From: Sclerodactyla briareus
Taxonomy: Eukaryota > Echinodermata > Holothuroidea > Dendrochirotida > Sclerodactylidae
Reading direction: 5' to 3'
NCBI GenBank assembly: GCA_026419785.1
Contig: JAODTK010002721.1
Coordinates: forward strand, 62,001 to 126,000
DNA length: 64,000 nt
This document shows positions 2,403 through 31,074 of this stretch, piece by piece; position 1 is the first letter of the stretch; each line of letters begins with the position of its first letter. Both the position numbers and the translations under genes were made by a program. The notes below the pieces were generated by a model. That model had not been told where the DNA came from and made no database searches. It saw only the letters and a list, made by a program, of their open reading frames with translations.

Positions 2403-2529
2403 TCAAGTAACGTTCCGGTGAGTCAGGCTTTCACTGTTCCCCCATATTTTCTCCGATAGTAAACGCATTTCTGTCATTCCCGCTCGTCTCTCCGACTTCA
2501 TCTCCGACATCTCCGTGGCTCTCGTTTCC
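2403..2529 (-). CDS. Gene A last exon (C-terminal tail and stop)
   Basis: The acceptor TTTCTTTCAG ends at 2530. The first base (G, 2529) completes the AG left by the previous exon to give Arg. The following 42 codons stay open to a TGA at 2403-2405. The tail is hydrophilic and charged (starts ETRATEMSEMK), as expected for the cytosolic C-terminus of an SLC22 carrier after the helix-12 KGKPLP motif. A second frame is also open to a TGA near 2429, so the exact C-terminus depends on the frame carried in from the preceding exon. Confidence 0.55.

Positions 2530-31074: not shown

Follow-up and report, generated by a model that had tools for sequence, protein, structure and literature searches.

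The window analysed here is a stretch of 64,000 nucleotides of Sclerodactyla briareus DNA (C2107:62001-126000 of a 319-Mb draft in 3,171 contigs), and coordinates below refer to it unless a contig is named. Its minus strand carries a gene for which approximately ten exons have been placed, from 31,074 down to about 2,403. An earlier note on this DNA had described ten small exons spread over 29 kb, and the ATG at 31074 and the stop codon at 2405-2403 fit the ends that it gave; such a division into exons is ordinary for animal genes. The minus strand contains all seven motifs listed in that note, arranged as in SLC22 proteins, an order that the note had also recognised: FELVC (28359-28345), YFAGYMVG (28307-28284), ESPRWLL (21365-21345), FNWY (19148-19137), AELIP (4302-4288), STGMG...SRIGG (3797-3753) and KGKPLP (3637-3620). 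These motifs are presumably assignable to particular SLC22 helices, and splice-site-like sequences occur at several of the exon junctions.

Exon 1 (30720-31083) would cover TM1 and the large extracellular loop expected between TM1 and TM2, including IPCD.GWDYDR, which we take to be the SLC22 motif of the first extracellular loop. It is homologous to C1499:18650-19411 and to a stretch at 54.5 kb in the window, and its probable placement draws on these copies together with its motifs; the pieces tried gave no SLC22 profile match. Exon 2 (28255-28359) holds FELVC and YFAGYMVG and is followed by a donor-like GTGAGT, while exon 3 (23140-23293) reads RIG.RLSMVISIAFACITSLIIVFTPVMSLFIALML and shares 73.7% amino acid identity over 57 residues with a copy at C2107:55946-55785. 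Exon 4 (22130-22313) reads APSKRVFCTNMYFLAFAFSYL and LAGLAKLIYRWRIL, its DNA being kept in three other stretches, and exon 5 (21215-21376) reads ESPRWLLTKGKTEDALTIFKKIAAING and REEEIKNARAGKVGAVLDKSQ on the two sides of a run of eight A. Exon 6 (19135-19240; ..SPLMLFLTVNMSFNW) ends in TM7 and is conserved in two other copies, one to the left on C2107 and one on C1499. Exon 7 (about 5800-6019, the lower end being approximate; FVQSFVFYGLTL ... GR.GFNVLSIFF) spans TM7 to TM9, and its homologue in the left copy resembles exons of two SLC22 loci, C2506 and C2726. Exon 8 (4285-4393) reads MGGKFCITMSFSIVYTWAAELIP, and exon 9 (3588-3801), with acceptor CTTACAG and donor GTAAGT, reads STGMGLFSMASRIGG...LMPE and TKGKPLPTTLQETRALY. 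A putative last exon (about 2403-2529) would encode the C-terminal tail after the acceptor-like TTTCTTTCAG. It matches the left copy at 72.5% in DNA over 2371-2558, and since this similarity extends beyond the stop its coding status is uncertain, making it the weakest part of the gene model.

The motif FNWY needed revision. The exon that carries it is real, whereas the Y had been read across the donor: in the left copy FNW is directly followed by the splice site GTGAGC, and an alignment of the copies indicates that the next exon (FVQSFVFYGLTL, about 6019-5800) supplies an F after FNW. FNWY had also been considered spurious, given the TM7-like exon at 6 kb, a view ruled out by the three-copy alignment, in which both are real and neighbouring exons.

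A profile search with ten pieces of the window returned three matches to TIGR00898 (2A0119), the NCBIfam model of the SLC22 family (OAT/OCT/OCTN), at 21252-21539 (E 1.1e-9, model positions 246-293), 4273-4404 (E 0.005, 405-440) and 3639-3815 (E 1.1e-9, 439-497). These three matches are collinear with the model, and the other seven pieces searched had no match to it. Solved SLC22 chains were the top structure matches for two of the four exons searched, namely exon 5, nearest to SLC22A11/A12, and exon 9, nearest to SLC22A6 chains, both likenesses being weak; exon 2 had no match in this search and exon 3 matches at chance level only. According to the earlier note, best matches of individual exons to different families would have spoken against a single gene. 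No significant best match to an unrelated family was encountered, but the left-copy exon 3 (C2107:55946-55785), which matches TIGR00898 in its own frame (E 7e-4, model positions 152-194), scores better with three other MFS models, and for six of the nine window exons tried (1, 2, 3, 4, 6 and 7) the exon by itself matches no family model. Exons 2, 3, 4, 6 and 7 are placed by their motifs and by their conservation in other copies. The curated TIGR00898 cut-off of 550.75 bits was reached by none of ten own-genome matches scored (of 56 candidates), and because matching runs exon by exon a split gene is unable to attain this whole-protein value. In a Pfam scan of ten pieces, MFS_1 matched exon 9 (E 0.007, under its cut-off) and other frames gave three weaker matches at chance level; Rfam (at gathering thresholds) and tRNA scans found nothing.

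The likeness to the SLC22 family extends from the order of the motifs to the ESPRW region, AELIP, the TM7 sequence FNW(F), TGMG...RIGG and the tail KGKPLP; unlike family members, the gene has a broken reading frame as printed. A motif search places the ESPXR signature within ESPRWLL at 21365-21345. As described in the part of a family study considered here, ESPXR is the signature of the central intracellular loop in SLC22, some subclades being without it as a motif, and clades including sea urchin members are recognised, the exact subclade of invertebrate sequences being poorly supported (PMC4633038). Nothing was seen in the window gene that departs from the family as that part of the study describes it, and the gene is an ordinary additional SLC22 member. 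Short motifs recur randomly when taken alone, so that the seven might be regarded as chance matches in non-coding DNA. The collinear profile matches at E 1e-9, the position of SLC22 proteins at the head of the solved-structure matches and the conservation of the motif-bearing exons across copies reduce this reading to a negligible probability.

The gene lies in a tandem array, a context absent from the earlier note. To its left on the same contig (C2107, 27.7-60 kb), DNA comparison revealed a second minus-strand copy whose exons from 3 onward, and parts of whose introns, are collinear with those of the window gene; exons 1 and 2 were not found within the stretch compared, and the exon 3 and exon 4 stretches occur twice. 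A further collinear copy with exons 1-9 is located at C1499:16-46 kb. A lone SLC22-like exon 1 (47005-47175, minus strand) was recognised by DNA comparison and frame reading, and together with the left copy, where the stretch compared shows no exons 1 and 2, it makes some copies look incomplete. Beginning at 54.5 kb in the window and extending to C2107:155.4 kb, plus-strand SLC22 exons point away from the minus-strand gene and probably constitute one further copy, to which the exons at C2107:127434, 147026 and 155221 probably belong. Its exon 1 (54515-54890; FGRYQKVLMGILSYVLL ... IPCDQGWD) contains frame breaks and has no SLC22 family match alone, and its exon 2 (57676-57790) reads FELVCERS and SAYFAGYLV in two frames. 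Its exon 9 has a frame open along the full length and matches TIGR00898 with an E value of 1.4e-14, and SLC22 chains with E values as low as 1.8e-11. Two repeats were also observed in the window: 14716-16304 is 83% identical to C2107:44269-45849, and 18068-18896 is repeated within the contig, where the unit is present several times at C2107:151.9-152.7 kb.

Array copies on the same contig are approximately 70-86% identical in DNA, and exon 3 and 4 stretches are doubled in the left copy, features which would allow misassembled repeats to have joined exons from several copies into an artificial gene. Against this, C1499 keeps the identical order of exons 1-9, and certain intron stretches are collinear together with the exons, leaving such a chimera with a very slim chance. 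The recurrence of the exon 1-9 order on C1499 and of the exon 3-9 order in the adjoining C2107 copy upholds the earlier proposal of one gene, whose exons would be spliced into one mRNA. For window 3500-4400, none of the eight own-genome matches listed (itself included) is a near-identical second place, the best other identities among them being 87% across some 130 bases and 75% across some 480. One own-genome comparison excluded low-complexity frames and subjects with more than 12 matches.

Frame breaks, which the earlier note does not mention, lie inside at least seven of the ten exons, and the printed sequence consequently encodes no whole transporter. The description of the locus as a near-complete transporter can thus be retained for the underlying gene, but not for the sequence as printed. 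Exons 2, 4, 5 and 9 each consist of two halves in different frames, which separates FELVC from YFAGYMVG in exon 2, ESPRWLL from the REEEIKN tail in exon 5, and SRIGG...LMPE from KGKPLP in exon 9. Exon 1, with several breaks, and exon 7 can be read only across more than one frame, and exon 8 differs from its copies by single-base gaps. In a sequence broken in this way, the matching splice phases named in the earlier note are putative. The related copies are also broken, often elsewhere than the window gene, and the alignment of the left copy with C1499 contains abundant single-base gaps, within exons as well as within introns.

Substitutions and indels behave differently in these comparisons. 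In five open exon blocks aligned with the left copy, mismatches at codon positions 1, 2 and 3 number 6/134, 8/134 and 16/134, and in six blocks aligned with C1499 they number 9/143, 7/140 and 22/137 (blocks with alignment scores below 70 dropped), a third-position excess with p values of 0.025 and 0.0009, respectively. A pseudogene would be expected to lose this bias, which is retained here; the comparison covers the time since duplication and not its last part. Over whole exons, substitutions amount to 11.3% versus 20.2% in presumed introns for the left copy (p ~2e-7), and to 11.3% versus 19.1% for C1499 (p ~3e-7), after dropping exons scoring below 75 (exons 1 and 2 in the comparison with the left copy, the last exon in that with C1499), together with one intron stretch scoring below 60 (left copy). 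The substitution pattern in these alignments is that of past selection on the protein. Single-base indels, on the other hand, are equally frequent in exons and introns, with 53/1051 (5.0%) and 63/1381 (4.6%) against the left copy, and 73/1339 (5.5%) and 90/1891 (4.8%) against C1499. Among the three copies, they remain at 4.7, 5.3 and 4.9% over exons 3-9, where substitutions are 9.7, 10.8 and 5.0%, respectively. Mutations would rise with divergence and errors would not, and this flat rate of about 5% therefore points to errors. Longer indels were rarer in exons in hand-picked open blocks (p 0.003 and 0.001), a deficit that was not significant over whole exons (p 0.12 and 0.16).

Housekeeping genes of the same draft served as controls. 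Frame breaks, mostly single-base in an otherwise conserved protein, were present in all three actin last exons read (L041, L042 and L043), of which two had been chosen since they were already split and one was the best whole match; in the latter, the breaks lie ahead of the matched part and just before the stop. Over roughly 450 bp, the pairwise alignments of these exons show 8, 9 and 4 indels; of these 21, 20 are of one base, with events shared among the three alignments. In the draft, adjacent actin pieces fall in different frames and stops occur in 2 of 16 matches, while HSP70 has stops in 6 of 14 matches, some of which may enter introns, and two overlapping frames at C2424:94846-95132. Histones proved a poor control (four matches, one with a stop). 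As breaks occur even in actin last exons, gene counts made on this draft may be off. The per-copy rate of single-base indels, roughly estimated, is 2.2-2.7% in the SLC22 copies and 0.2-1.3% in actin, a lesion rate some 1.6 to 12 times that of actin with the same kind of lesion, and the excess may be due in part to true decay, to noise in the alignments or to a poor consensus where the DNA is repeated.

It is likely that the locus holds a normal multi-exon major facilitator gene of SLC22 type, one of several tandem paralogues, whose frame was broken for the most part by single-base errors in the draft assembly. Equal indel rates in exons and introns, their flatness with divergence and the protein selection evident in the substitutions together suggest that the breaks are mainly draft errors. 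Gene-fragmenting indel errors occur in long-read drafts, where frameshifts mimic pseudogenes, according to a study on small genomes (PMC12007338); the breaks of the window gene may be of a similar kind. If instead the breaks were true mutations, the window copy or the whole array would recently have lost its function. The number of broken exons, a break density above that of actin, and the left copy and lone exon 1, which look incomplete, agree with such decay. It is nevertheless unlikely, considering that break density is flat with divergence and the same as in introns despite the codon-position bias of the substitutions, that breaks of the same kind occur in actin, and that several splice sites are preserved. 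That the whole tandem array has been decaying simultaneously after long selection, with true lesions atop draft errors, is quite improbable.

Under the preferred reading of a normal gene obscured by draft errors, the locus would encode a 12-helix organic-ion transporter. SLC22 proteins transport small organic ions by alternating access, and the predicted product would, by analogy, carry such ions across the membrane in this way. The array would add modestly to what is known of how SLC22 genes have duplicated in invertebrates. Reading motifs by eye can recover a true gene yet overlook its broken frame, and in this draft a housekeeping control is needed before broken frames are interpreted as pseudogenes.

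Between exons 2 and 3, the intron contains a run of GT dinucleotides (23916-25060), uninterrupted for about 1,130 bp past the first few units and yielding stop-free open reading frames of 400-434 amino acids in four frames. Its surroundings were excluded from some of the queries, and the frame survey printed frames of at least 38 amino acids. An uninterrupted run of this length is oddly at variance with a high error rate; a consensus step may smooth dinucleotide runs such as this one.
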